DNA from: a virus
IMG/VR virus record: IMGVR_UViG_3300036859_000215
Location: 1-55,516 of that record
Strand: one strand, 5' to 3'
Length of the DNA stretch: 55,516 nucleotides
The translations under genes were made by a program, and so were the position numbers. The notes below the pieces were generated by a model. It did no database searches and was not told where the DNA came from. It saw only the letters and a list, made by a program, of their open reading frames with translations. Positions 21,196 to 55,516 of the stretch are shown one piece after another (position 1 is the first letter of the stretch; every line of letters begins with the position of its first letter).

Positions 21196-21332
21196 CGCGT
21201 TGGCATCCCTTCCATAATCCTAATCGCGGCGTTCTCAACCTCCGGCGCCACATTCAAGCTCTGTTGCATCTGTCCCTGTGAGACGAGCAACATGGAGAGG
21301 ATGATCCAGATCAGGGCTAGGTGGAGGTTCAT
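21192..21332 (-). CDS. 46-residue membrane peptide
   Basis: The ATG at 21332 overlaps the stop of the methyltransferase gene and the TGA stop overlaps the next ATG. The peptide has one hydrophobic N-terminal helix (about residues 3-17) and a polar tail. Perfect coupling on both sides supports it as a real gene. Function unknown. Confidence 0.6.
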   Translation of the reverse strand: MNLHLALIWIILSMLLVSQGQMQQSLNVAPEVENAAIRIMEGMPTR

Positions 21333-22099
21333 GCCGCTTGCTCCTGTTTCAGAAGCGCAGCCTTCACGGCTTTAGCTACAGCTCGGCCCATTGGGAGAGG
21401 GACGCCGTTGCCTATGCACTTACGTTTGCCGTGCGCTGTCAGCGGGCAATCATCGCCTTCTAGGAAACCTTCCGGTAATCCCTGGAGCGCGCACATGCGG
21501 GCGAGCGAAATGTTGCCTCGCTCATGCGAGAAGGCCGCGCCATGACCGGCTGGCACAGTTGGTGGTCGCCATGTCTTTTTGATTTTGCCGCCGCCGCCGA
21601 GTTTCACCGAAACTGGATTGCTGGCGCTCGTGACGGCTTGTGCTTCTAGCATCGGCTCGAAAACTTCTGTCTCAACGCGGAAAGTTATCGAGGCTGGGCC
21701 GCCGAATGAAAAACGTCTAAGCCGGTTTTGCTCCGCGCCAAGCCAGCGTGGGTTCAAATAATGGCTCGTTACCTTGTAGCCATAGACGCTCGGCTCTGGA
21801 GCGTCCTTGACGTTCTCCATGACGAACCACCACGGCATAGCTTCTTCGACAATTCGCTCAAACTCTGGTATAAGGTTGCCGTGCTTTCCGGCGTGCCGAT
21901 TGATGTGGCGAAACTGGCTGAAGATTTGGCATGGAGGGCCGCCGATCACGCCCTCAAATTTGCCGTAAGGCGCGTGCCATTTCCGTATATCCCCGCCCCA
22001 CAAAAGATCGGGACCGCGCACGACGCAAAAACCCTCTTCCTCGAGGGCCATGTCAAGTAGCCCAATGCCAGGAAAAAGGGAAAGGACGAGTCCGCTCAT
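21329..22099 (-). CDS. DNA (cytosine-5-) methyltransferase
   Basis: This 256-residue enzyme methylates cytosine in DNA. The family motifs are present: FPGIG (residues 9-13, AdoMet binding), GGPPCQ with catalytic Cys57, ENV (95-97), a QNRLRR segment and a C-terminal CIGNGVP. It is short for this family, with a small target-recognition region. No cognate restriction enzyme was found nearby, so it is an orphan phage methylase that probably protects phage DNA or alters gene control. Confidence 0.92.
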   Translation of the reverse strand: MSGLVLSLFPGIGLLDMALEEEGFCVVRGPDLLWGGDIRKWHAPYGKFEGVIGGPPCQIFSQFRHINRHAGKHGNLIPEFERIVEEAMPWWFVMENVKDAPEPSVYGYKVTSHYLNPRWLGAEQNRLRRFSFGGPASITFRVETEVFEPMLEAQAVTSASNPVSVKLGGGGKIKKTWRPPTVPAGHGAAFSHERGNISLARMCALQGLPEGFLEGDDCPLTAHGKRKCIGNGVPLPMGRAVAKAVKAALLKQEQAA

Positions 22100-27006: not shown

Positions 27007-27984
27007 GTGACCGTCCGCATCATCAACGCCGATGTGATGGACGGGCTTGCACAGCTCGAAAGCGAGAGCGTGCATTGCGTGGTAACTTCTCCCCCTTATT
27101 TTGGGCTGAGAGACTACGGGATGCCGGGACAAATCGGCCTTGAGCCGACACCCGATGCCTATGTCGCAAAGCTGGTTGAGGTATTCCGCGAAGTCAGAAG
27201 GGTTCTCCGCAAGGATGGAACGTGCTGGCTGAATTTAGGGGATAGCTACGGTCGCGGTGAGAGGGTCAAATGGGCTGGCGATGCCACGCGAGACAAGAAC
27301 GGTTTCCAATCGCACATCACACAAAGCGGCAATTACGGCACGGGTGCCATTCTAGCAAACAAGCAACTCATCGGCATCCCCTGGCGTGTCGCCTTTGCTC
27401 TACAGGCCGACGGCTGGTGGCTAAGACAAGACATCATCTGGTCGAAGCCAAACCCGATGCCCGAGAGCGTCACCGACCGCTGCACCAAGGCGCATGAATA
27501 TCTCTTTCTGCTTACCAAGGCAGAACGGTATTTTTATGACGCGAAGGCGGTGAGGGAAGATTTTTCTGACGAGCGCATGGGCAACCCCGGCACGCCTAGC
27601 CCAAAGGCGGCAAACATACCGGGGCAGCGGCCACACACCATCGGAAGCAAGGTTTGGGATGCGGGCGCGGAGCGTGGTGGCCGCAACAAACGCTCCGTCT
27701 GGGAAGTCACAACTCAACCCTTCCCCGAAGCTCATTTCGCCACCTTCCCCCCAGCTCTCATAGAGCCTTGCATCAAAGCCGGATGCCCGGAAGGCGGGAC
27801 GGTTTTAGATCCATTCGGCGGTAGCGGAACCACCGGCCTTGTCGCTGATCGTCTCGGCCGCAATGCCATCCTGATTGAACTGAACCCGGAATATTCCGCG
27901 ATGGCCGATCGCCGGGTCAAAGGCGACTGCCCGATGTTCGCTCAAGTCTCCGCCACACCACACATCGAGAGGGAGAGGGGATGA
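27007..27984 (+). CDS. DNA methyltransferase (N4-cytosine or N6-adenine), SPPY type
   Basis: This 325-residue protein, starting with GTG, has the catalytic TSPPY motif (27-31) near the N-terminus and a DPFGGSGTT AdoMet-binding motif near the C-terminus, the order of the beta class. A long insert between them includes a WEV-containing segment. It is an orphan methylase, without a restriction partner. SPPY is commonest in N4-cytosine enzymes but N6-adenine ones exist. Confidence 0.9.
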   Translation: MTVRIINADVMDGLAQLESESVHCVVTSPPYFGLRDYGMPGQIGLEPTPDAYVAKLVEVFREVRRVLRKDGTCWLNLGDSYGRGERVKWAGDATRDKNGFQSHITQSGNYGTGAILANKQLIGIPWRVAFALQADGWWLRQDIIWSKPNPMPESVTDRCTKAHEYLFLLTKAERYFYDAKAVREDFSDERMGNPGTPSPKAANIPGQRPHTIGSKVWDAGAERGGRNKRSVWEVTTQPFPEAHFATFPPALIEPCIKAGCPEGGTVLDPFGGSGTTGLVADRLGRNAILIELNPEYSAMADRRVKGDCPMFAQVSATPHIERERG

Positions 27985-28106: not shown

Positions 28107-28252
28107 GTCAGTGGGCTTTCACCGTCATCATTATCAGCCTCTATTTCTGCAACTCGATTTGGCTTGCGAGCCTCGGGAACTTTTGGGCGGCGGGTTATTG
28201 GCTGTTCGCCGGTGGGATTTCGATTTGCGCCATGATGGGGCTGACGCGGTGA
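28103..28252 (+). CDS. Small membrane protein
   Basis: Starting with GTG at 28103, this 49-residue protein has two hydrophobic stretches (about residues 5-20 and 26-45). It overlaps the second methylase gene by four bases. Confidence 0.5.
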   Translation: MSQWAFTVIIISLYFCNSIWLASLGNFWAAGYWLFAGGISICAMMGLTR

Positions 28253-29028
28253 CCTGGCGTGAGGAACAGATCGGCGACGCACGGCTCATTCTCGGAGATT
28301 GCCGGGAGGTCTTGCCCTCCTTTGCGCCTGACTCCATCGACATGATTTGGACCGATCCGCCCTATGGGCATAGCAATCATGACGGCGATTGGAACGCGCG
28401 CCTAAACGAACATCGCGGCATTGAAGGTATTCCGATTGCCAACGATGACGCAGACTCCATGCGGGTTGTTGTTGACGCAATGCTAACCGAGGCAGCGCGC
28501 ATTCTCAAGGCTGACTGCTGCTGCTGCTGCTGCTGCGGCGGCGGACCGAGGCCGACATTTGCGTGGGTTGCGGATCGGCTCGACAGGGAAGGGCTCACAT
28601 TTTTTCACAGTGTCATTTGGGACAAGAAGAATCCTGGCCTTGGTTGGCGCTATCGCCGACAGCATGAAATGGTCATGGTAGCGCATAGGGAAAATGGCAA
28701 ATTATTGTGGCGGGACAATGACATAACCGCTCGCAACATCTTCGATTTGATGCCACCACGCGAGCGATTTCACCCTAACGAAAAGCCGGTTGGGCTAGTG
28801 AGCCATTTCATCCAACTTCACAGCGATCTCTGCCAAACAATTCTCGATCCGTTTATGGGGAGCGGCACGACTGGTGTTGCGTGCGCCAAGGCGGGACGGA
28901 ACTTCATAGGCATAGAGCTTGAGCAGAAATGGTTCGACATCGCCTGCAAACGCATAGACGAAGCCTATAAGCAAGGAGACATGTTTATCGAGCGACCGAA
29001 GCCTGTAAAGCAAGAGGCAATGTTATGA
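28249..29028 (+). CDS. DNA adenine-type methyltransferase (DPPY) with polycysteine run
   Basis: The 259-residue enzyme starts with GTG at 28249. It has DPPYG at residues 36-40, the signature of N6-adenine methylases, and a DPFMGSGTTG motif towards the C-terminus. Residues 90-96 are seven consecutive Cys followed by Gly-Gly-Gly. It is the third orphan DNA methylase in the phage. Its site is unknown. A GANTC or other host-like site could link it to the GcrA-like regulator, which is speculation. Confidence 0.9.
   Translation: MTWREEQIGDARLILGDCREVLPSFAPDSIDMIWTDPPYGHSNHDGDWNARLNEHRGIEGIPIANDDADSMRVVVDAMLTEAARILKADCCCCCCCGGGPRPTFAWVADRLDREGLTFFHSVIWDKKNPGLGWRYRRQHEMVMVAHRENGKLLWRDNDITARNIFDLMPPRERFHPNEKPVGLVSHFIQLHSDLCQTILDPFMGSGTTGVACAKAGRNFIGIELEQKWFDIACKRIDEAYKQGDMFIERPKPVKQEAML
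28516..28536 (+). repeat. (TGC)7 microsatellite encoding polycysteine
   Basis: Seven TGC codons in a row inside a methylase gene, followed by GGC GGC GGA. The run is prone to slippage and could act as a contingency locus, although in-frame triplet changes would only alter loop length. Confidence 0.85.
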
Positions 29029-40007: not shown

Positions 40008-40050
40008 GAATGGGGGGAGCCAAGCCCGAGGGCATTGGCTTTCGCAGGGG

Positions 40051-40088
40051 AGAGACCGGAGGGGAGCAATTCTCTCCGGTCTCTTTTT
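40051..40088 (+). terminator. Rho-independent terminator after capsid genes
   Basis: AGAGACCGGAG (40051-40061) pairs perfectly with CTCCGGTCTCT (40074-40084), and a run of five T follows (40084-40088). The stem of 11 pairs and the loop of 12 bases make this the strongest terminator in the window. It separates the capsid transcripts from the sugar cassette. Confidence 0.93.
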
Positions 40089-40160: not shown

Positions 40161-41069
40161 ATGCCACGTCATGTTTGCTTGGTGGGAACGGCTGGTTCCC
40201 GTGCCGGTGCCCCCGTTCAAGATCCCAATGTCGAAATTTGGGGGGTATCGAGCCGAGGCAAGCTGCCACGAGCCGACCGCTGGTTTGAGCTTCACCCGAT
40301 AGACGTGACTTTTGAGAAGCCAGGCGAAGCCAACGGCTGGCGGGCTGAACTCAAGAAATTCACCACCGACATCGCGGAACTCTGGATGCTGTTTCCAGAG
40401 TACGGCCTACATCGCAACGTGATTGCATACCCAATCGAGAAGATTAAGACCCGCTTCGGCACCGAGCATATGGCCTCTACATTCTCTTGGATGATGGCCA
40501 TTGCCATCGATGAGATGTGCCCCATCGATCCTGACGGAACGCGACACTTTGCTGAGCCGGGAAGTATCATCTCTATCTACGGCGTCGATATGCTGCATGG
40601 CAGCGAATACGAGGAGCAGCGCAAGGGATTTCAAGCCATGATAACCGTTGCCAAGCAACTCGGCATTGACGTGCGCCGGGTGCTTTCTGGCGGCCTCATC
40701 TATGAGCCGGTTCCCTATCCCCTTTGGCAACTGGACCCCCTCATCGCCAAGCTTGATTTGCGCATCAAGGAATCGAGTGCTGCCCTCACTACTTTGGACC
40801 AATCCATCATCGCTACGCGGGAGATGATTTGCTCCACACAAGGCCAGCTTTCCGAGGTGCAGTTGATGATAGCGGGGGATGGGGTGGCCGAGATGCTCAA
40901 GGACGAGGATGGTCCGTCCAAGCCGTATGACCCGCAGGAGCGGGTCAAATTCCTCAATCAGCAGCTAGACCACCTCAAGAAGACCTCGGCGCAAATCTCA
41001 GCCGATATTGTCGGGCACAGCGCCGTCAATGGCGAGCAGCGCTACATGCGCAGCTACTTAATGGGGTAG
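40161..41069 (+). CDS. Rossmann-like protein with coiled-coil tail, first gene of sugar cassette
   Basis: The 302-residue protein starts with VCLVGTAGSRAGAP, a loop like a nucleotide-binding Rossmann turn, followed by an IWGVSSRGKLPRADRWFELHP stretch. Residues about 100-185 hold an Asp-rich region. The C-terminal third (about 205-290) is a coiled coil. I have seen proteins of this N-terminal type only as uncharacterised phage proteins. A sugar- or nucleotide-binding role is plausible from the fold and the context, and no glycosyltransferase motif is clear. Confidence 0.55.
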   Translation: MPRHVCLVGTAGSRAGAPVQDPNVEIWGVSSRGKLPRADRWFELHPIDVTFEKPGEANGWRAELKKFTTDIAELWMLFPEYGLHRNVIAYPIEKIKTRFGTEHMASTFSWMMAIAIDEMCPIDPDGTRHFAEPGSIISIYGVDMLHGSEYEEQRKGFQAMITVAKQLGIDVRRVLSGGLIYEPVPYPLWQLDPLIAKLDLRIKESSAALTTLDQSIIATREMICSTQGQLSEVQLMIAGDGVAEMLKDEDGPSKPYDPQERVKFLNQQLDHLKKTSAQISADIVGHSAVNGEQRYMRSYLMG

Positions 41070-41076
41070 GCCAGCC

Positions 41077-41601
41077 ATGAAGCAGACAGGGATCAGGTCA
41101 CTTGCTAACGAAGCCTTGCTGACACAGGCGAGGCTTAGGGAGCTTCTGACTTATTTCCCGGACTTAGGGAAATGGAAGTGGAATGTTAGGCGGAATGGTG
41201 TTCGTAACGAATGGGCGGGCACCCCCGATGGATCCGGCTACATACAAATCCGCATTGCTGGGATTAAGTACCGCGCTTGCCGATTGGCCTTTCTTTTTAT
41301 GCGCGGGACATGGCCACCTCAATTAGTTGACCACATAAACAGAAATGTGGGAGACGACAGGTGGGAGAATCTCCGTCTTGCTTCCCGCAGCCAAAATGGC
41401 GCTAATGCCTGTCATCCCAAGCGAAAGCGGTTTGATCTTCCTCAGGGCGTAACCGAGCATCCTGGCGGCTACCTCGCAAAAATTTCAATCGACGGCTACC
41501 GCAAACACGTTGGTCTGTTCAAGACGCCAGAAGAAGCGCAGGCCGCATACCTTAATGCCTCTGCCTTTCGCGCCGAATTTTTGCCGGAGGGCACGGCATG
41601 A
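41077..41601 (+). CDS. HNH homing endonuclease-like protein with AP2 domain
   Basis: The 174-residue protein has an HNH-3-like core (LVDHINRNVGDDRWENLRLAS) at about residues 85-107 and a C-terminal AP2-like segment (GGYLAKISIDGYRKHVGLFKTPEEA). This is a common free-standing phage homing endonuclease layout. It lies between the first cassette gene and the PseA-like gene, overlapping the latter by four bases, and may have moved in with it. Confidence 0.85.
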   Translation: MKQTGIRSLANEALLTQARLRELLTYFPDLGKWKWNVRRNGVRNEWAGTPDGSGYIQIRIAGIKYRACRLAFLFMRGTWPPQLVDHINRNVGDDRWENLRLASRSQNGANACHPKRKRFDLPQGVTEHPGGYLAKISIDGYRKHVGLFKTPEEAQAAYLNASAFRAEFLPEGTA

Positions 41602-42683
41602 CAGAGGTTTTCCGGTGTCGGACCTGTCTCTACACAAACAAAAAGCCCGACCTTCACTTTGACTCCGAAGGCATCTGCTCGGCCTGCCGCAACTATGCTA
41701 ACCGGCCGGAGATTGACTGGGACACGCGCAAGAAAGAACTCGTCAATATCCTGTCGGACTCGAAGCCGAACGGCTCCGGCTATGACTGCATCGTGCCCTC
41801 GTCAGGCGGGAAAGACTCCCACTACCAGGCTCTTACGCTCATTGAACTGGGAGCACGCCCGCTCATCGTTACCGCCACCACGGACTTCTTAACTCCACTA
41901 GGGCGGGCGAATATCGACAACCTTTCCCGCTACGCCACCACGATAGAGGTGACGCCGAATCGGAGTGTTCGCGCCAAACTATGTCGGCTCGGGCTGGAAC
42001 TGGTCGGTGACCCGTGCTGGCCGGAGCACGTCCTAATCCACAGAGTTCCGTTTCGTGTGGCCCGCGATCTTGGCATCTCCCTGATCTTCTACGGTGAGTG
42101 TGGTCCAGTCCAATATGGCGGCCCGAAGGGCACCGAGAATACGAGACAAATGACGCAGAGATTTGTGTCCGAGTTTGGCGGCTTCCTCGGGTTGCGTGCA
42201 GAGGATTTCATTGGCCAGGAGGGTATCACCGAGCAGGATATGCGCGACTATGTAGCTCCGGACAGTGCCGAGTTAGTCAGCGCCAATATAGCCGCGCATT
42301 TTCTTGGCTGGTACCAGCCTTGGGATTCACATCGCAATGCGGCGGTCGCCAAGGCGCACGGGATGCGGCAAGAGCTTCCGTCTCCCGCGAATTATTGGTG
42401 CCACGAAAACCTCGATAACATTTTCACATCGGCCCATGATTTTTTGATGTGGAGAAAATACCACTACGGCCGCGCCACGGCGCAGCTCTCCGTTGACATT
42501 CGTGCCGGGCTTATCACCCGCGAAGAAGCTCTGCCGATCGCCGAGCAGCGTGATGGCATCATGCCTGACATGTATGCGGGCGGCGATGTTTGGGAGGCTA
42601 TGGAAATGATTGGCGTGAGCAAAGCACGATTTTTTGAAATTGCTGACCAGTTCACCAATTGGAGCCTGCACACTCGATGCTGA
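41598..42683 (+). CDS. PseA/WbpG-like N-acetyl sugar amidotransferase
   Basis: The 361-residue protein has zinc-type Cys pairs at Cys7/Cys10 and Cys27/Cys30 and a PP-loop SGGKDS at residues 69-74, which binds ATP. Members of this family convert an acetamido group of nonulosonic or related sugars to an acetamidino group, using ammonia from a HisH/HisF pair. The next gene is a HisF-like protein, the family's usual partner. The length agrees with the family. Substrate identity is inferred. Confidence 0.85.
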   Translation: MTEVFRCRTCLYTNKKPDLHFDSEGICSACRNYANRPEIDWDTRKKELVNILSDSKPNGSGYDCIVPSSGGKDSHYQALTLIELGARPLIVTATTDFLTPLGRANIDNLSRYATTIEVTPNRSVRAKLCRLGLELVGDPCWPEHVLIHRVPFRVARDLGISLIFYGECGPVQYGGPKGTENTRQMTQRFVSEFGGFLGLRAEDFIGQEGITEQDMRDYVAPDSAELVSANIAAHFLGWYQPWDSHRNAAVAKAHGMRQELPSPANYWCHENLDNIFTSAHDFLMWRKYHYGRATAQLSVDIRAGLITREEALPIAEQRDGIMPDMYAGGDVWEAMEMIGVSKARFFEIADQFTNWSLHTRC

Positions 42684-43375
42684 AAACCCGCATAATCCCG
42701 ACGCTACTGACTCGCGGGCGCGAACTCGTCAAGGGCGAGCGCTTCGATAGTTGGCGCCGGGTCGGCAATGCCATGCAGGCCTGCCGCGTGCACAACATGC
42801 GCGGGGTGGATGAACTTGTCTTGTTGGAAGTCGGCGGCGGGATGATTGACACCGAAACAGTAAGCGCGCTGGCTGGCGAATGCTTCATGCCGCTGGCTGT
42901 GGGCGGTGGTGTCAGAACCCTGGAGGATTTTCACTGGCTGATCGGAGCCGGGGCCGACAAGGTGGTGCTGGGCAGCGTGGCTTGGCAGAACACCAAGTTG
43001 GTGGCGGACGCTTCCAAGAAATTCGGCGCGCAAGCCGTAGTGATCTCCATCGCCGTGCGCCAGGGGGACGACGCGGTGGGCTGGGCCATCGACATGCAGA
43101 CGCTCGGTGCCGGCGAAATCCTCCTGCAATCGATTGACCGCGACGGGACTATGGAAGGCTATGACCTTCCACTTATCAAGGCTGTTTCGGAAGCAGTAAG
43201 CATCCCAGTCATCGCTTCTGGCGGATGCCGTGACTATGCCAACATGGCCGATGCTCTAATAGCCGGAGCGCACGCGGTAGCCGCCGGAGCACTCTTTCAG
43301 TTCAGTGATGCGACTCCGCAAGGCGCTGCCCGCTATCTCCATGAACATGGGTTCAACACGAGGCTTGCGGCATGA
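42677..43375 (+). CDS. HisF-like TIM barrel, ammonia-channel partner without cyclase residues
   Basis: This 232-residue protein aligns by eye with HisF from its RIIP start. HisF catalytic Asp11 is replaced by Leu11, and the position of Asp130 by Ala126 (ISIAVR instead of IDAKR). So it cannot be an imidazole-glycerol-phosphate cyclase and matches the HisF2 type that feeds ammonia to WbpG/PseA. The partner glutaminase HisH is not found in this window, so host HisH may supply it. Confidence 0.85.
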   Translation: MLKTRIIPTLLTRGRELVKGERFDSWRRVGNAMQACRVHNMRGVDELVLLEVGGGMIDTETVSALAGECFMPLAVGGGVRTLEDFHWLIGAGADKVVLGSVAWQNTKLVADASKKFGAQAVVISIAVRQGDDAVGWAIDMQTLGAGEILLQSIDRDGTMEGYDLPLIKAVSEAVSIPVIASGGCRDYANMADALIAGAHAVAAGALFQFSDATPQGAARYLHEHGFNTRLAA

Positions 43376-44217
43376 GCGCCATTCTCGTGACGGGCGGTTC
43401 GGGAACTTTCGGGACAGCTTTCGTCAAGCGTCTGCTTAAGGGCTCGGACTATAGCCGTATCGTTATCCTCTCGCGTGGGGAGCACAGACAGGCCGCTATG
43501 CGGGCGGAAGTCCGCGACCCAGAGGGAAGGGTGCGTTGGCTCATTGGGGACGTGAGGGACTTTAGGCGGCTGTGCAGGGCCTTCTCCGGCATTGACGTGG
43601 TGGTTCACGCTGCGGCGCTCAAGCGCATCGAAGTCTGCGAGTATGACCCCATCGAGGTCGTGCGAACGAATGTGTTGGGCGCGGTGAATGTCATCGAAGC
43701 CGCCCTCGAGAAGGGCGTCGGGAAAGTCGTGGCGCTCTCGACCGACAAATGCGTGGATCCGATCAATGCCTACGGCGCCAGCAAACTTCTCGCCGAAAAA
43801 CTGTTCATAGCTGCGAACAACATGCGCGGAGCCTGTGGCACGGTCTTCGCGCTTGCGCGATATGGGAACATCGCCGGCTCGCAAGGTTCTGTGATTCCTA
43901 AATGGCGTGAGCTTTTGGAGCACACCGACACGGTGCCCGTGACCGACCCTGATGCCACAAGATTCTGGATGACAGCCGAGGAGGCTGTGCAGCTCGTGCT
44001 TGACACGATTGAGACTATGGAGGGCGGTGAGGTCAATATCCCGACGTTGCCAGCCTATCGGCTTGGTGACTTAGCAGAAGCCATGGGAGCGAGAATGGAT
44101 GTTCGTGGCCTGCCATTTTTCGAGAAACAACACGAGTTGATGGATCGCGGAAATAGTAGCGATGCCGCGCGGCGTATGACCGTGAACGAATTGCGGGAAA
44201 GGCTGGCCGCGCTATGA
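43372..44217 (+). CDS. PseB/FlaA1-like UDP-sugar 4,6-dehydratase
   Basis: The 281-residue short-chain dehydrogenase has the NAD(P) motif TGGSGTFG (7-14), Asp125-Lys126 and the YGASK motif (Tyr134, Lys138). This combination is that of the PseB-type inverting 4,6-dehydratases, the first step in pseudaminic acid synthesis from UDP-GlcNAc. It is about 50 residues shorter than many PseB proteins. ATGA overlap with the HisF-like gene shows coupling. Confidence 0.82.
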   Translation: MSAILVTGGSGTFGTAFVKRLLKGSDYSRIVILSRGEHRQAAMRAEVRDPEGRVRWLIGDVRDFRRLCRAFSGIDVVVHAAALKRIEVCEYDPIEVVRTNVLGAVNVIEAALEKGVGKVVALSTDKCVDPINAYGASKLLAEKLFIAANNMRGACGTVFALARYGNIAGSQGSVIPKWRELLEHTDTVPVTDPDATRFWMTAEEAVQLVLDTIETMEGGEVNIPTLPAYRLGDLAEAMGARMDVRGLPFFEKQHELMDRGNSSDAARRMTVNELRERLAAL

Positions 44218-44438
44218 AGCGTGTCGAGATCAGCGACCACGCCATGTTGCGCTATTTGGAGCGCACCGGTCGCATCGACATGGAAGCGCTGAAGAAGGAA
44301 ATCCTCACGCCGGATTTGGTTTCTGCTGTCAAGCTTGGCGCCAATTCCTTCAAAGTCAATGGTCATACCTGGTTGATGGAGAACGGACGCGTGGTGACGT
44401 TTCTGGACAATACCAAGCGGGGCTATCGGCCGAGATGA
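44214..44438 (+). CDS. Small protein in sugar cassette
   Basis: The 74-residue protein starts in the stop of the dehydratase gene. It has an ISDHAMLRYLER helix and a beta-rich end (SFKVNGHTWLMENGRVVTFL). The layout is like small RelE/DUF4258-like folds, but this is weak. It overlaps the next small gene by four bases. Confidence 0.55.
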   Translation: MKRVEISDHAMLRYLERTGRIDMEALKKEILTPDLVSAVKLGANSFKVNGHTWLMENGRVVTFLDNTKRGYRPR

Positions 44439-44614
44439 GCGACAAGCGCAAGCCGAAAGGATGGCTCGACGACGAGCGTCTGCTAGTGCCTGACCTCCAT
44501 GTGTATGAACCAGAGGAGCCACGAGAGACGGGACTGCTTGACCACTCTGGGCGGAAACTCGTTCGAGAGACGAGACGCATTGGTTTCCTGCCGTCGAGAC
44601 CGCGAAGCCGATGA
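44435..44614 (+). CDS. Small polar protein in sugar cassette
   Basis: A 59-residue protein rich in charged residues and ending in a GFLPSRPRSR stretch. Its start and stop overlap the genes before and after by four bases each. No family recognised. Confidence 0.55.
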   Translation: MSDKRKPKGWLDDERLLVPDLHVYEPEEPRETGLLDHSGRKLVRETRRIGFLPSRPRSR

Positions 44615-45216
44615 TTGATCCCTATCAGGTGGTGCGCGATTTCGAGCAGGAGCTCTGCGATTATACCGGAGCGCCTTATTGCGTTTCGACCAATTCCTGT
44701 ACTATGGCGCTGCTCATCACGCTGTCTTGGTGGAAGATGCTGAGGGGCAAAGAGACGATTTCCTGCCCGAAGCGCACTTACGTTTCGGTGCCGCAGTCGA
44801 TCAAGCTGGCCGGCCATCGCATCAAATGGCGCGACGAGGACTGGCTCGGCATGTATGCGCTGCCGCCCACGCCCATCTGGGATTGCGCCCGCCTGCTCAC
44901 CTCCGGCATGTATAAGCGAGGCACGATTCAGTGCCTGTCGTTCCATTGGTCGAAGCATCTGCAAATCGGTTTGGGCGGTGCCATCCTGCATGATCGCAAG
45001 TCGGCCGACCCGATCTTCCGCCGCATGCGCTTCGATGGACGCACCGAAGGGTTGACGCCGGATCAGGATAGCTTCCCTGTTCTTGGATACCACGCCTATC
45101 TCACTCCGGGTCTGGCGGCTGACGGACTTATGCGCTTGTCACTCTTGCCGGAGCACAATGAGCCGCTGCCGAATAGTCCCTATCCCGACTTGAGCCAGTT
45201 CGAGATATTCGCATGA
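44611..45216 (+). CDS. PseC-like DegT/DnrJ/EryC1 aminotransferase, minimal form
   Basis: The 201-residue protein matches the large PLP-binding domain of DegT-family sugar aminotransferases: a STNSCTMAL segment (26-34), a CPKRTYVS segment, Asp91 and the PLP lysine Lys115 in FHWSKHLQIGLGGAIL. Normal members have about 370-390 residues. The small C-terminal domain is missing and only a short tail follows. It may still be active as a dimer, or may be a decayed enzyme. Confidence 0.75.
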   Translation: MIDPYQVVRDFEQELCDYTGAPYCVSTNSCTMALLITLSWWKMLRGKETISCPKRTYVSVPQSIKLAGHRIKWRDEDWLGMYALPPTPIWDCARLLTSGMYKRGTIQCLSFHWSKHLQIGLGGAILHDRKSADPIFRRMRFDGRTEGLTPDQDSFPVLGYHAYLTPGLAADGLMRLSLLPEHNEPLPNSPYPDLSQFEIFA

Positions 45217-45238
45217 ACGCTAGGAGGATGTATCTCCT

Positions 45239-45868
45239 ATGACGGCGGCTGTGATTGTGCAGGCAAGGATGAACTCGACGCGATTCCCTAGGAAGGCTGT
45301 TGCCGACCTAAACGGTTCGCCTGTTCTCTGGCACGTCCTCACCAGATGTCTGATGATTGACGGTGCCGACATGGTGATTCTCGCTGTGCCCGACGAGGCC
45401 GACAGCGATGAATTGGAAGTGATTGCCGAGAATTTAGACATCAAAGTGGTGCGCGGCTCCGAGAATGATGTGCTGTCTCGCTATCTGAAAGCTGCGAGAG
45501 CAGTGAGGGCGGATGTCGTAATGCGCGTGACGGCAGATTGCCCGCTGATCGATCCGCATGTGTGCTCTGCCGTGCTCGATGCGGTGAAGCGCGGTGACGT
45601 GGACTATGCCTCCAATACCCATCCCCGCACCTTTGAGCGTGGGCTTGATTGTGAAGCCTTCACTCGTTGGGCGTTGGAGGTGGCGGCGAGGGATGCGACT
45701 GACCCCTATGACCGTGAGCACGTAACAAGTTGGATGCACAGCAATCCGCTGTTTCACACGGTGAATGTAGAGAGCGGTGACCCAGGTAGGGCACAGATAA
45801 ATCATTGCGTCGATTACCCGGAAGACCTGGATCGCCTTAGGGGGCTTTTCTGCAATGTCGCAGCGTGA
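45239..45868 (+). CDS. SpsF/PseF-like CMP-sugar cytidylyltransferase
   Basis: The 209-residue protein begins with VIVQARMNSTRFPRKA (the CTP-binding loop) and has a TADCPLIDP motif at 98-106 that binds metal through Asp100. This is the SpsF family of cytidylyltransferases, which activate nonulosonic acids as CMP-sugars in Pse and Leg pathways. Length is a little short (usual about 230-250). An AGGAGG ribosome binding site precedes it. Confidence 0.85.
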   Translation: MTAAVIVQARMNSTRFPRKAVADLNGSPVLWHVLTRCLMIDGADMVILAVPDEADSDELEVIAENLDIKVVRGSENDVLSRYLKAARAVRADVVMRVTADCPLIDPHVCSAVLDAVKRGDVDYASNTHPRTFERGLDCEAFTRWALEVAARDATDPYDREHVTSWMHSNPLFHTVNVESGDPGRAQINHCVDYPEDLDRLRGLFCNVAA

Positions 45869-46400
45869 ATTAAGCCAAAACTATCAGGCTAGGTATCAAC
45901 GCGCATGGAGGCGGGCCAATCCAGAAAGAGCCCGCGAACGTGATCGGAAAAAGGAGCAACGTGAGCGAGAGCGTGATCCTAACGGATTTCGGCAAAAGGC
46001 GACTGCGAGAATGCGGGCATGGCGAGCACGTAACCCAGAACGCGCAAAGGAGGCCAATAAGAAACACAACTCCCTCAGGGTCAAGCAATGGAGGGCAAAC
46101 AACAAGACAAAGACGCGCGTTTACGGATCAAACTATCGCGCCCGCGTCAGCGCGGCGGAAGGTGCTTACAATGCAGAGGACATCCAACGCCTCTACAAGG
46201 CGCAGAGGGGCAAGTGTGCATATTTTCGGTTTTGCGGGAACCGTCTCGCCGGAAGTTACCACATTGACCATATCATACCTCTAATTGAGGGCGGCTCTAA
46301 CTGGCCAGCAAATCTGCAACTCACATGCCCAGAATGTAATCAGCGAAAGAATCGACGCGACCCGCTTATCTTCAGCAGGGAATTGGGGGCGCTTCTATGA
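45855..46400 (+). CDS. HNH endonuclease
   Basis: The 181-residue protein has a strongly basic repetitive N-terminus (RARERDRKKEQ type) and then a C-terminal HNH nuclease core: Cys pair CAYFRFCG, YHIDHIIPL, NLQLTCPECNQRK. It overlaps the preceding gene by 14 bases and the next by four. It is the second endonuclease in the cassette and may be a mobile homing-type gene. Confidence 0.85.
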   Translation: MSQRELSQNYQARYQRAWRRANPERARERDRKKEQRERERDPNGFRQKATARMRAWRARNPERAKEANKKHNSLRVKQWRANNKTKTRVYGSNYRARVSAAEGAYNAEDIQRLYKAQRGKCAYFRFCGNRLAGSYHIDHIIPLIEGGSNWPANLQLTCPECNQRKNRRDPLIFSRELGALL

Positions 46401-46804
46401 GGTTCATCTCGGTTTATGATTATCCCGCCGCAGCGCAGCCTCTCTATGATCTGTTAGCTGAGCGGGCGCCAGAGGTGAATATCTCGCATAAGGAGATGCC
46501 GACTTGGGAGGCGCATCTTAAATTTATCGCCTCGCGGCCATATGAATCTTGGTATCTGATCGAGGTGGACACCGTTCCGGTTGGGACGATCTATCTGACC
46601 AATCAGCGCGAGGTCGGACTATTCATCTTCAAGCTATATAGAGGCCAAGGCTACGGCGGCGAGGCGTTGGCCGAGTTGAAACGTAAGCATCCGGGCCAGT
46701 TGCTCGCCAATGTCAGCGTCAACAACAAGGATGGCCTGTCTTTTTGGCAAGACCAAGGCTTCAAACCCCTGCAACAGACTTTGCTCTGGAGTCCCCCATG
46801 CTAG
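46397..46804 (+). CDS. GNAT acetyltransferase, PseH-like
   Basis: The 135-residue protein has the acetyl-CoA-binding signature RGQGYGGEAL and a C-terminal NNKDGLSFWQDQGF segment, both typical of GNAT enzymes. PseH acetylates the 4-amino group of the 6-deoxy-AltNAc intermediate; the context makes the same role likely here. It is shorter than PseH by about 30 residues. Confidence 0.75.
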   Translation: MRFISVYDYPAAAQPLYDLLAERAPEVNISHKEMPTWEAHLKFIASRPYESWYLIEVDTVPVGTIYLTNQREVGLFIFKLYRGQGYGGEALAELKRKHPGQLLANVSVNNKDGLSFWQDQGFKPLQQTLLWSPPC

Positions 46805-47517
46805 ACCTTCAATCGAGAGACAGATGTTTTGTGATCGCCGAGGCCGGGACGGCGCACGCCGACCCCGACCCTAAGAAGCGATTCTGCAAGGCGCTGCGTT
46901 TGGTTGATGCGGCACACTCCGCAGGAGCCGATGCCATCAAGTTCCAGTGGTTTGCCTCGCCGTGTGAAATGTTTTGCTGGATGGAAGGCGATGGAATGAG
47001 GGCCCCGCGGTGGTTGGCATCTTGGATGGACCCAGAGGAACACTGGAAGCAAGTCAAGGAATTCTCTGAGGCGTGCGGGCTTGTGTTTCTTGCCAGTGCC
47101 TTCGAAAGAACCACTACCCAATGGCTGATTGATCTCAACCTCGCCGCCACCAAAGTAGCTAGCCGTGCCGCCAAGACTTTCCCCTATGACATGGAGGGAT
47201 TGCCGAGGCCGTTCCTGATTTCGGGTGGCATGGGTTTGCCAGTAAACCCGCTCCCTCAAGATACCATCTTGCTTGAGTGCGAGTCCAAATACCCATCAAC
47301 ACAGGCATGGGAGAAAGCATGGCCGGGCTTCTCCGACCATTCTGGCAAGCCCTTCCTCGGCATCGATGCCATTTCACGCGGCTGCAAGCTGCTAGAGGTG
47401 CATTTCATGATCGACCCGATCGATGCGGGTCCGGACCTTCCAGCCTGTCTCACCATTGATGAGTTGAAGCTGGTCTGTCAGGCGCGGGATTATTACGCAG
47501 AGAGGAAAACGGCATGA
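46798..47517 (+). CDS. PseI/NeuB-like nonulosonic acid synthase, barrel only
   Basis: The 239-residue protein has NeuB-family marks: an IAEAGTAH segment (13-20), KFQ (48-50), SGGM (142-145), FSDHS (178-182) and EVHFMID (200-206). The family condenses phosphoenolpyruvate with a six-carbon sugar to give the nine-carbon acid. Family members are about 340 residues with a C-terminal SAF (antifreeze-like) domain, which is absent here. It starts inside the PseH-like gene. Confidence 0.85.
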   Translation: MLDLQSRDRCFVIAEAGTAHADPDPKKRFCKALRLVDAAHSAGADAIKFQWFASPCEMFCWMEGDGMRAPRWLASWMDPEEHWKQVKEFSEACGLVFLASAFERTTTQWLIDLNLAATKVASRAAKTFPYDMEGLPRPFLISGGMGLPVNPLPQDTILLECESKYPSTQAWEKAWPGFSDHSGKPFLGIDAISRGCKLLEVHFMIDPIDAGPDLPACLTIDELKLVCQARDYYAERKTA

Positions 47518-47705
47518 CCATTGCCATTCAGGAGAAGAAGACCAAACAGGCGGCCAACTATCGTAAGGGCTCAGTGCGGCAGCGCTGCGGACTCTGTGTG
47601 CATTACCGGCCCAAGCCGGGAGCGTGCGAGTTGGTGCGCGGCCTGATCGAGCCGAGCGCGTTGTGCGATCTGTATGAGCCAAAGAAGGCGGCGAGAGCGG
47701 CATGA
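47514..47705 (+). CDS. Small Cys-motif protein (zinc or iron-sulfur)
   Basis: The 63-residue protein has four Cys (25, 28, 38, 51), in the order C-x2-C-x9-C-x12-C, and a final YEP segment, reminiscent of small metal-binding or high-potential iron-sulfur-like phage proteins. It is coupled by overlaps to synthase and methylase genes and may be part of the pathway. Confidence 0.6.
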   Translation: MTIAIQEKKTKQAANYRKGSVRQRCGLCVHYRPKPGACELVRGLIEPSALCDLYEPKKAARAA

Positions 47706-48280
47706 CGGCGATCGACTGGTGGAGAGGTGCCGGAGGCGACAGCTACACGCAAAGGAACCGCGTCGATTGGCAAAAGCGCATCCCTTTCTGGCGGGCCATT
47801 GTCGATGATCTAACCCCGGAGTCAGTCCTGGAAGTCGGCTGCAATGCGGGGTGGAACTTGCTCGCACTACGCGCTTGCTTTCCGCGCATCGATCTGACTG
47901 GCATTGAGCCTAACGCCGTGGCTAGACGTGAAGCACAAGGCCACGAACTTACGGTGGCTCCTGAATTTTGGGTGCATGGTAGGGTTTACAACCTGGTTTT
48001 CACCGCTGGCGTTCTGATTCACGTCCCGTCGCCAGAGTTGCCCATATTCATGCGCCGCATCGTTGATGCCTCCAAACGCTACGTCATCGCCGTCGAATAC
48101 GACGCCCCAGAGGAAACCGAAATCGAATATAGGGGCGAAATGGGCCTGTTATGGAAACGCCCTTACGGTAAGCTATATCAGGATATGGGGCTGAGGCTGT
48201 TGGGTGATTGTCACCTCCCGCCAGAGTCGGGGTTCGATCATTGCCACTTTTGGCTCTTGGAAAAACCCGACGTTTCCTGA
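47702..48280 (+). CDS. Pseudaminic acid-associated methyltransferase
   Basis: The 192-residue protein has an AdoMet motif VLEVGCNAGW (42-51) and an N-terminal GDSYTQRN segment (12-19), the features of the methylases annotated as pseudaminic acid biosynthesis-associated (TIGR03587 type). It would methylate the sugar or a precursor. As the last cassette gene, its presence strengthens the interpretation as a nonulosonic acid pathway. Confidence 0.82.
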   Translation: MTAIDWWRGAGGDSYTQRNRVDWQKRIPFWRAIVDDLTPESVLEVGCNAGWNLLALRACFPRIDLTGIEPNAVARREAQGHELTVAPEFWVHGRVYNLVFTAGVLIHVPSPELPIFMRRIVDASKRYVIAVEYDAPEETEIEYRGEMGLLWKRPYGKLYQDMGLRLLGDCHLPPESGFDHCHFWLLEKPDVS

Positions 48281-53443: not shown

Positions 53444-55516
53444 TGGCACGCAGGAAGGGGCTTAAGTCGTCTGATATTCTGCGGCCGGGGGACATTGCGC
53501 TCCCCGGTGTGGCGAAAGACCCTGGCGTGCGGGCACGGTTCAATCCGCTACAAGTGCCCCGGCGCATCGATCCGCGCGGGGCGGCTTTGGGAGACTTGGC
53601 ACAAGCCAAAGGCGGGTTGGCCGATGCCACTAGAGGGCTGGCCAATACTACGCGGCAGAGCGGCACCATTGCCGCCAATGCGCTGGCGCAAGTCGGTCAA
53701 GCGCAAAGCCAGGTGGCCGACGCTACGCTAAAGGGCGGGCAGATTGTTGCCAACGCGCAGGAGATGTTTGCCAATTCCGTGGCGCAGATTGGCCAAGCGT
53801 TCGAAACCCTCGGTAATCTGCGCAAGAAGAAAGAGGAAGATCTGGCGGTCGAGAAATGGGAGTTCAACCGTGCCAAGGCCACCATCGGCTTTGAACAGTC
53901 GGAAGCCGAAAATCCCAACCCGAAACGATTAAGAGGCAAAGCCTATCTGGACGATGTAGATTCCCGCTACGCCAAGTTCCTGGACGACAACACCAAGGCC
54001 ACCGAGGAAGAACTAGGCTTTACCATTGCGGGTGAAGCCAGGGCGAAAGTTACGGCGCTGTCCTTGCGCGCCCGGGTGCAGGCGATGGAATCCGCTGCCA
54101 ACCGGGACCATGACCGTAGTGTCATGCAACTATATGAAACGGCCAAGAATGACGTGATCGAAAGCGGCAGGCTAGTTGGTGCAGATGGTGACATTGGTAC
54201 CGGACTTGCCCGCGCCGATAAAATTTCTTCCCGAATTGAGGGCGTGGTCGCTCCCGATAAATATCTCGGCTTCAAGGAGGCCGCGCGGCGCAATGCCTAT
54301 GAGCAGGGCATTCGCCATTACCTCGCCAAGGGTGATGTTGCGACGGCAGAGGCCATTGTCTCGCAATTGACGGGTCTACCCGGTCCTGGGGCTGATAGTG
54401 TGAGCACCGCCATCATGGATGCCTTCAGGGCAGAGGGCGTTGATACGGTGCTCGGGCTCGCCATCTCTCACCGCGAAACCGCTGGAACCTTCGACCCGCA
54501 AAGCAAGACTTTCATCGACCCGAGAACCGGCAAGCGTGCCTCGAGCGCGTCCGGCCTGTTCCACATGACCGACGCCACGGCGAAATCCTATCTTGGCGCA
54601 GTCAATGCTAGTGACGATCCGGTCGAGAACCAAGTGAAGGCCGGTGCCAAGCTGACGGCCGACAACAAGAAGGGCCTGCAACGAATCTTGGGCCGAGAGC
54701 CTAGTTATGGCGAGGTTTATCTCGCGCATGTATTGGGGCTAAACAAGGCGGCAGCAGTGGTCACGGCGGACCCGGACGTGCCGCTTTCAACTGTTTTGAA
54801 CGAAACCGAAATCCGCAACTCTGCCCCTAAACTATTGCGGGGATCCGTGGGCGATATGCGCGCTTGGGCAGACGATGCCATGCAAGCCAGCATGGAAGCG
54901 GTGACCAATGCTGGGATTGTCACGGGGCGGACGATAGCCAGCAATGAAGCCGGGCTGCCGATGGACGACGCGGCGCGACTGTGGAAAGAGGTAGAGGATA
55001 CCAAGAAGCGCCTGGCTGATGAGCAGGAGAAACTCAACAATGAGTTCATTGATGCCTTTGTGCCAGTCAAGCCAAGGGCGGAACGCGATTCTGCAGCCTT
55101 CGTTATTAAATACTCTCCGGTAGCGGCTAAAGCCTATGGCGTTGCCGATGCAGTCAAGGCCGATCCAGAATCTACGCGCGAGGAAAAGATTGCGGCCCAA
55201 ACCAGAGCTTTCGCCGTTTCCATTGAGGAACAGAAGATGCTCGCTGGCGCGCGGGGCGTCTCCTTCTCGGAGCGAGACGCCAAGCTTCTTTCTATTCCGC
55301 AAGCTAAGGCGATTGTGAATAGCCTCACCGAAGCTAAGGGACCGGATGCGGTGCAGGCATTCTATCAACTACGCGACGAGACCGGCTCTTATTTCACTAA
55401 GGTTTATGGCGAATTGGTCGATCAGAAGCTCCCGGCTGAATTCCAAATTCTGGGTCTGCTCGATCCGGTGCAAAATCCGGCGCAGGTTAATTCGATGACG
55501 CAAATTTTAGGTGTCT
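53443..55516 (+). CDS. Internal virion protein with lytic transglycosylase domain, N-terminal part (continues at base 1)
   Basis: The frame stays open to the end of the window and continues in the same frame at base 1, giving 1097 residues. At about residues 335-440 there is a transglycosylase-like motif: catalytic Glu345 in ISHRETAGTFDP, then ASGLFHMT, then a PSYGEVYLAHVLG segment. This is the SLT fold that cuts peptidoglycan as DNA enters. The gene is the counterpart of the T7 gp16 lytic domain but lies earlier in the order. Confidence 0.88.
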   Translation, partial: MARRKGLKSSDILRPGDIALPGVAKDPGVRARFNPLQVPRRIDPRGAALGDLAQAKGGLADATRGLANTTRQSGTIAANALAQVGQAQSQVADATLKGGQIVANAQEMFANSVAQIGQAFETLGNLRKKKEEDLAVEKWEFNRAKATIGFEQSEAENPNPKRLRGKAYLDDVDSRYAKFLDDNTKATEEELGFTIAGEARAKVTALSLRARVQAMESAANRDHDRSVMQLYETAKNDVIESGRLVGADGDIGTGLARADKISSRIEGVVAPDKYLGFKEAARRNAYEQGIRHYLAKGDVATAEAIVSQLTGLPGPGADSVSTAIMDAFRAEGVDTVLGLAISHRETAGTFDPQSKTFIDPRTGKRASSASGLFHMTDATAKSYLGAVNASDDPVENQVKAGAKLTADNKKGLQRILGREPSYGEVYLAHVLGLNKAAAVVTADPDVPLSTVLNETEIRNSAPKLLRGSVGDMRAWADDAMQASMEAVTNAGIVTGRTIASNEAGLPMDDAARLWKEVEDTKKRLADEQEKLNNEFIDAFVPVKPRAERDSAAFVIKYSPVAAKAYGVADAVKADPESTREEKIAAQTRAFAVSIEEQKMLAGARGVSFSERDAKLLSIPQAKAIVNSLTEAKGPDAVQAFYQLRDETGSYFTKVYGELVDQKLPAEFQILGLLDPVQNPAQVNSMTQILGV
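55369..55516. repeat. Terminal direct repeat, right copy
   Basis: Repeats bases 1-148 with one difference (A55495 versus G127, codon ATG versus GTG). See the left copy for the interpretation. Confidence 0.95.

Follow-up and report, generated by a model that had tools for sequence, protein, structure and literature searches.

A recurrent cassette of pseudaminic-acid-type sugar enzymes near the late genes of uncultivated phages

Genome analysis of the window (the whole stretch of 55,516 nucleotides studied here, IMG/VR record IMGVR_UViG_3300036859_000215) led to eight collinear sugar enzymes, with head genes before them and tail-tube genes after them, and the same set of enzyme families was found beside differing backbones in other viruses. 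We lean, with modest confidence, toward a virus-adapted, slimmed-down pathway, in which a CMP-activated sugar of the pseudaminic acid type would be made late in infection and would then most likely be placed onto a virion surface protein.

The first and last 148 bases of the record (1-148 and 55369-55516) are the same except for a single mismatch at position 127; the record, which the database classes as linear, thus amounts to a complete, circularly permuted genome of some 55.4 kb. Family searches recognised an integrase, a terminase, a portal (head-tail adaptor), a major head protein, the tail tubular proteins A and B and internal virion proteins, and by this gene content the virus is a temperate podovirus. 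The cassette is preceded by the major head protein and followed by a tail tubular protein. The same genome bears three DNA methyltransferase genes (21329-22099 on the minus strand; 27007-27984 and 28111-29028 on the plus strand). Downstream of the internal virion proteins lies a protein with a Concanavalin A-like lectin domain (PF13385, 7115-7852), possibly a virion part that binds glycan. The cassette and its upstream boundary consist of the following features:

40048..40082, plus strand: intrinsic terminator at the boundary of capsid block and cassette, a hairpin of ~18 pairs followed by a T run (terminator scan)
40161..41069, plus strand: A302, a protein of 302 aa, Rossmann-like with long C-terminal helices (no family match; AF2 model)
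41077..41601, plus strand: HNH endonuclease (PF13392 HNH_3, E-value = 6e-11)
41598..42683, plus strand: WbuX/PseA-like N-acetyl sugar amidotransferase (TIGR03573)
42677..43375, plus strand: WbuZ/HisF2-like partner of WbuX (TIGR03572, NF038364, PF00977)
43372..44217, plus strand: PseB-like UDP-GlcNAc 4,6-dehydratase (TIGR03589)
44214..44438, plus strand: small ORF of 74 aa (phrog_8252, unknown function)
44435..44614, plus strand: small ORF of 59 aa that overlaps both neighbours (read from the sequence)
44611..45216, plus strand: PseC-like single-domain mini-DegT sugar aminotransferase, 201 aa (PF01041, AF2, Foldseek)
45239..45868, plus strand: cytidylyltransferase, CMP-nonulosonate (NulO) synthetase-like (PF02348, E-value = 7e-24)
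45855..46400, plus strand: HNH-like endonuclease (read from the sequence)
46397..46804, plus strand: GNAT acetyltransferase, PseH-like role (PF00583)
46789..47517, plus strand: NeuB/PseI-like synthase of 242 aa without the C-terminal SAF domain (PF03102)
47514..47705, plus strand: small Cys-containing ORF of 63 aa (read from the sequence)
47702..48280, plus strand: pseudaminic-acid-biosynthesis-associated methylase (TIGR03587)

An earlier note, made from the letters of the window, had described this interval as eight enzymes with overlapping starts and stops behind a strong terminator. Each of the eight is backed by a family search, at the place and in the order given there. Stops and starts overlap at most junctions (41598/41601, 42677/42683, 43372/43375, 44214/44217 and 46397/46400), and the terminator hairpin at 40048-40082 folds with an MFE of -36.3 kcal/mol (z = -6.88). 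The description was incomplete in that the interval also holds two HNH-type ORFs, A302, which belongs to no known family, and three small ORFs. Both HNH-type genes (41077-41601 and 45855-46400) stand in line with the operon and are probably insertions outside the pathway; a relative of the first one is located directly upstream of WbuX in another viral locus (L007).

As judged from sequence, WbuX, WbuZ, PseB and the methylase are strongly supported as family members; for the NeuB-like synthase, the cytidylyltransferase, the DegT protein and the GNAT protein the support is moderate. Specifically, WbuX matches TIGR03573 with 251 bits (cut-off 203), retains the SGGKDS PP-loop and the CxxC motif and has all 29 of the 29 family-conserved residues, while its WbuZ/HisF2-like partner has TIGR03572 as best model (215 bits, under the cut-off of that model) and reaches 202 bits with NF038364. 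For the PseB-like dehydratase, TIGR03589 is the best of all models with 314.8 bits, against 205.8 for FnlA and 55.8 for LegB; the match spans positions 6-265 of 324, with a shorter C-terminus, and is under the curated cut-off of 407.75. The TDK and YxxxK motifs are retained and 22/22 conserved residues are present. The methylase scores just above the cut-off of TIGR03587 (113.3 bits, cut-off 112.05) and has 25/25 conserved residues. Concerning the second group, the window cytidylyltransferase belongs to PF02348 (85 bits, above cut-off) and no PseF model match was found for it in the HMM search; the cytidylyltransferases of two relatives present 168 and 190 bits to PseF, under its cut-off of 205.7. 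The acetyltransferase is a generic GNAT (PF00583, 32 bits, above cut-off) from a family common to 51 loci, and an HMM search of the window protein gave no match to a PseH model. Family searches had been proposed in the earlier note as a check of the pathway; they place most of the proteins in families of the pseudaminic/legionaminic type, more clearly so in the relatives, most of whose synthases score above the cut-off for PseI.

The window copy of the synthase belongs to PF03102 (76 bits, above cut-off) and keeps 16/16 residues that are conserved among the relatives, including K48, H181 and H202. Its likeness to NnaB is greater than to PseI (84.8 bits for TIGR03569 vs. 53.3 for TIGR03586, under cut-off). 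Full-length synthases in six relatives have PseI as best model with 328-430 bits, five of them above cut-off, and this argues for a Pse-type product. Short synthases are found in several other loci besides the window (242 aa), with a range of 215-264 aa, and the window copy forms a divergent SAF-less type together with one relative (L058, 50% identity). A scan of viral contigs that used the window NeuB as its only query gave no relative, because this copy is divergent. Both the NeuB and the DegT proteins of the window are much shorter than the bacterial enzymes.

The DegT protein has about 200 aa, vs. about 370 aa in bacterial enzymes. It is above the cut-off of PF01041 (63 bits), reaches 32 bits with the PseC model TIGR03588 and is devoid of the C-terminal domain. 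Structure prediction, another check proposed earlier, returned a DegT fold in a confident AF2 model (pLDDT 97.5); in Foldseek, its matches were the large domains of ArnB, perosamine synthase and H. pylori PseC (E-values 1e-8 to 1e-10). All 57 mini-DegT sequences compared have the Schiff-base lysine K115 and D91, and the window protein retains 47 of the 49 conserved residues. The mini-DegT is a virus-specific form: its profile matched 263 IMG/VR contigs vs. 3 contigs in 84,980 genomes scanned, all three being MAG or single-cell fragments, and in 274 bacterial genomes it matched longer DegT proteins weakly (open frames of 291-423 aa, at most 51 bits), with one phage-like contig (333 bits) as sole exception. 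Relatives also exist in Flavobacterium phage immuto and Synechococcus phage S-SCSM2R, inside other sugar islands; the mini-DegT is therefore best described broadly, as a phage sugar aminotransferase, and alone is no marker of nonulosonates. In immuto (NC_055915.1, 56735-57379) the neighbours of the relative are a "pilin glycosylation protein" and an epimerase of nucleotide sugars. Immuto is a cultured phage and offers a laboratory system in which the enzyme could be studied.

Two genes shorter than their bacterial forms and two HNH genes, probable insertions, could also be taken as signs of cellular contamination, or of a decaying capture without function in the window phage. However, the cassette sits in a complete, circularly permuted genome and has phage genes at both sides, the family-conserved residues are retained, and a short DegT is the norm of its family in about 75 loci. 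Contamination is ruled out by the complete phage genome and the viral relatives, and the reading as a whole, largely refuted by these comparisons, is hardly credible.

Although the position of the pathway had been called rare in the earlier note, many uncultivated viruses turned out to have the same set. A search with the window WbuX gave 14 related viral contigs, most of them with nearly the same gene set, and the best 80 of the 263 viral contigs matched by the mini-DegT profile were taken into a locus comparison. The resulting set comprised 89 distinct loci, namely the window, 85 other viral loci and 3 from the cellular-genome scan. The eight most frequent protein clusters in it are the eight enzyme families (present in 77, 71, 62, 62, 61, 56, 55 and 51 loci), followed by an unknown 112-aa protein (35 loci) and A302 (31 loci); loci were collected via the aminotransferase or WbuX, so these counts are conditioned on both, and related contigs are not independent. 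All eight enzymes occur together in 22/89 loci. Where at least 8 kb were available on each side (n = 27), at least six enzymes were present in 21 loci and all eight in 14. Gene order differs between loci, and the viral backbones vary, with several unlinked terminase, portal and capsid clusters. Among 33 long contigs, a T7-type tail tube B protein was found in 20 and a PF00589 integrase in 7 (the integrase search covered the PF00589 family), and the label of temperate podovirus, correct for the window, does not hold as a rule for the carriers. As far as these loci show, the cassette is a recurrent virus module beside differing backbones. Evolution as a single unit was considered and rejected: WbuX and WbuZ are the only pair to co-vary strongly (Spearman 0.77) and the other pairs range from 0.06 to 0.52, which indicates that genes reshuffle. 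The conserved protein of about 112 aa (L074:3266-3604 and 34 other loci), located directly after or near the mini-DegT and absent in the window, is a candidate for a missing step or a virion protein. Neither WbuX nor the synthase of the window had a match among 50,697 phage records, the eight-enzyme set is absent from the loci examined in cultured phages with a mini-DegT relative, and no cultured phage of the collection searched bears the full set.

In the pathway that we prefer, PseB would convert UDP-GlcNAc to a 4-keto-6-deoxy sugar, the mini-DegT would aminate it at C4 and the GNAT would acetylate the aminated sugar. The UDP would then be taken off by a host enzyme or by an unrecognised one, and the PseI/NeuB-like enzyme would condense the sugar with PEP. 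WbuX and WbuZ may convert the N-acyl group to an acetamidino group, the methylase may methylate the sugar, and the cytidylyltransferase would yield the CMP-sugar. A CMP-sugar of the Pse type is the probable product, perhaps amidinated and methylated. Finally, the sugar would be transferred in the cytoplasm onto a virion surface protein, before or during assembly, by A302 or by an unrecognised protein.

In known routes, UDP removal is obligatory ahead of PEP condensation. PseG (TIGR03590) was found in 0/43 viral contigs, and a NeuC-type epimerase (PF02350) and the GT28 C-terminal domain (PF04101) in 0/24 each. Additionally, the WbuY/HisH glutaminase (TIGR01855) was found in 0/43 viral contigs by a search that matched 14/14 controls. 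Since the window genome is complete, the lack of a UDP-sugar hydrolase and of HisH is genuine in this phage. Together, these gaps are where a strict Pse-pathway claim is weakest, and the lack of HisH means that free or host-supplied ammonia would be needed if WbuX and WbuZ work as an acetamidino system. Either the host or an unrecognised protein may remove UDP and release ammonia, or the chemistry may be different. Why both PseG and HisH are consistently missing is a well-defined question of biochemistry, and the most interesting one raised here.

The same absence of a recognisable UDP-removing enzyme from every contig tested is what would be expected if another modified sugar and no nonulosonate were made, with the NeuB-like protein using another substrate or having a new role and the UDP-sugar being used directly, e.g., by A302. 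The SAF-less synthase of the window and the presence of the mini-DegT in other phage sugar islands would agree with this. Nevertheless, most relatives tested have a full-length PseI above cut-off, and the synthase is found repeatedly alongside the cytidylyltransferase and the Pse-type methylase, none of which a direct UDP-sugar route would need, leaving a slim chance for such a sugar.

In the relatives, the genes immediately 5' of the cassettes match Holliday junction resolvases, NinG/Rap endonucleases, a transcription antiterminator family and DNA methyltransferases, and those immediately 3' match small and large terminase subunits and portal proteins. These neighbours indicate that the cassette usually heads the presumed late region, the window cassette lying further inside it, and that the cassette is probably a late-region element. 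In T7, a terminator lies between the capsid gene and the tail-tube genes. The window cassette occupies a place matching this post-capsid site, and by analogy we infer moderate, late expression by read-through; a search for a sigma-70 promoter for the cassette gave no excess over shuffles. Sequence does not tell apart the three roles considered in the earlier note; the late position mildly favours the one in the virion, and virion glycosylation, possibly by A302, is our preferred use.

It is also known that phages can alter the surface sugars of their hosts. The pathway could accordingly yield a nonulosonate that a host transferase puts on the host surface (LPS, capsule or flagellin), where it would block superinfection or stop progeny from re-adsorbing to sister cells and debris. 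Two reports describe phage-borne genes altering the pseudaminic acid of Acinetobacter capsules (PMC12053666, PMC6586298). No known glycosyltransferase recurs in the cassette among the loci compared, so a host transferase could serve, and the window phage is temperate. On the other hand, the cassette is located among late genes and not in a separate conversion locus, and many hosts would be without a transferase for such a sugar. Moreover, a PF00589 integrase was not found in 26/33 carriers (long contigs, searched for the PF00589 family), which weakens lysogenic conversion and makes it unlikely as a general role. We consider a host-surface destination rather unlikely.

For virion glycosylation, A302 is a possible but doubtful transferase; it may also be an accessory protein. 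HMM searches gave it no family match, and its AF2 model, Rossmann-like with long C-terminal helices (pLDDT 81.5), had no PDB match. A search with A302 only gave 80 loci; at least 9 kb upstream were available in 24, and 22 of these 24 had at least three cassette enzymes there, a proportion to which lineage contributes because the query set came from cassette-bearing phages. In a Microcystis phage, an A302 relative adjoins the terminase, with no cassette within the stretch examined. One match to an MptE-like protein was found in BFVD (E-value = 4e-3), a suggestive likeness only. An assignment as Maf/MptE-like enzyme was not established, as PF01973 was matched by 1/25 members (E-value = 0.16) and hhalign gave a probability of 15.9 over 24 columns.

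Compared with known systems, the cassette shares with the bacterial CMP-pseudaminic acid pathway (PseB, C, H, G, I and F of Helicobacter/Campylobacter; Caulobacter flm) the enzyme families for dehydration, amination, acetylation, PEP condensation and CMP activation. It differs in that the viral contigs tested are without PseG, PseC is replaced by a single-domain DegT of 200 aa, the window synthase is SAF-less, and the genes are virus-borne, in or beside the virion-gene block. The adjacent WbuX (above cut-off) and WbuZ/HisF2-like partner resemble the acetamidino modification of WbuX-WbuY-WbuZ and PseA-HisH-HisF, from which the viral version differs by the missing glutaminase subunit. Transfer of a nonulosonate onto a surface protein in the cytoplasm before assembly, as proposed here, would recall flagellin O-glycosylation by FlmG/Maf; neither FlmG nor Maf was found, and the MptE-like resemblance of A302 is weak. 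Mycobacteriophage capsid glycosyltransferases and the sugar islands of cyanophages and immuto are likewise phage-borne sugar enzymes; immuto and S-SCSM2R share the mini-DegT relative, but the eight-enzyme set is missing from every cultured-phage locus examined. The gene abbreviations listed for marine phages in one review include pseI (PMC6359870), and no description of the eight-enzyme module was found in the literature searched, which mostly lay outside subscription papers and preprints.

In its boldest form, the proposal would be a widespread virus-only gene set providing a late modified-Pse route that glycosylates virions, with a minimal aminotransferase, a substitute for PseG and, in A302, a new class of cytoplasmic nonulosonate transferase; that all of this holds together seems rather unlikely. 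If the pathway reading is true, the mini-DegT would stand as a minimal aminotransferase that arose in nature, and many environmental phages would make sialic-acid-like sugars themselves. This would add an extra chemical layer to phage particles or infected cells, which is left out of current models. Surveys would usually file the single genes as separate auxiliary metabolic genes, and viewing them as one module makes their role testable.
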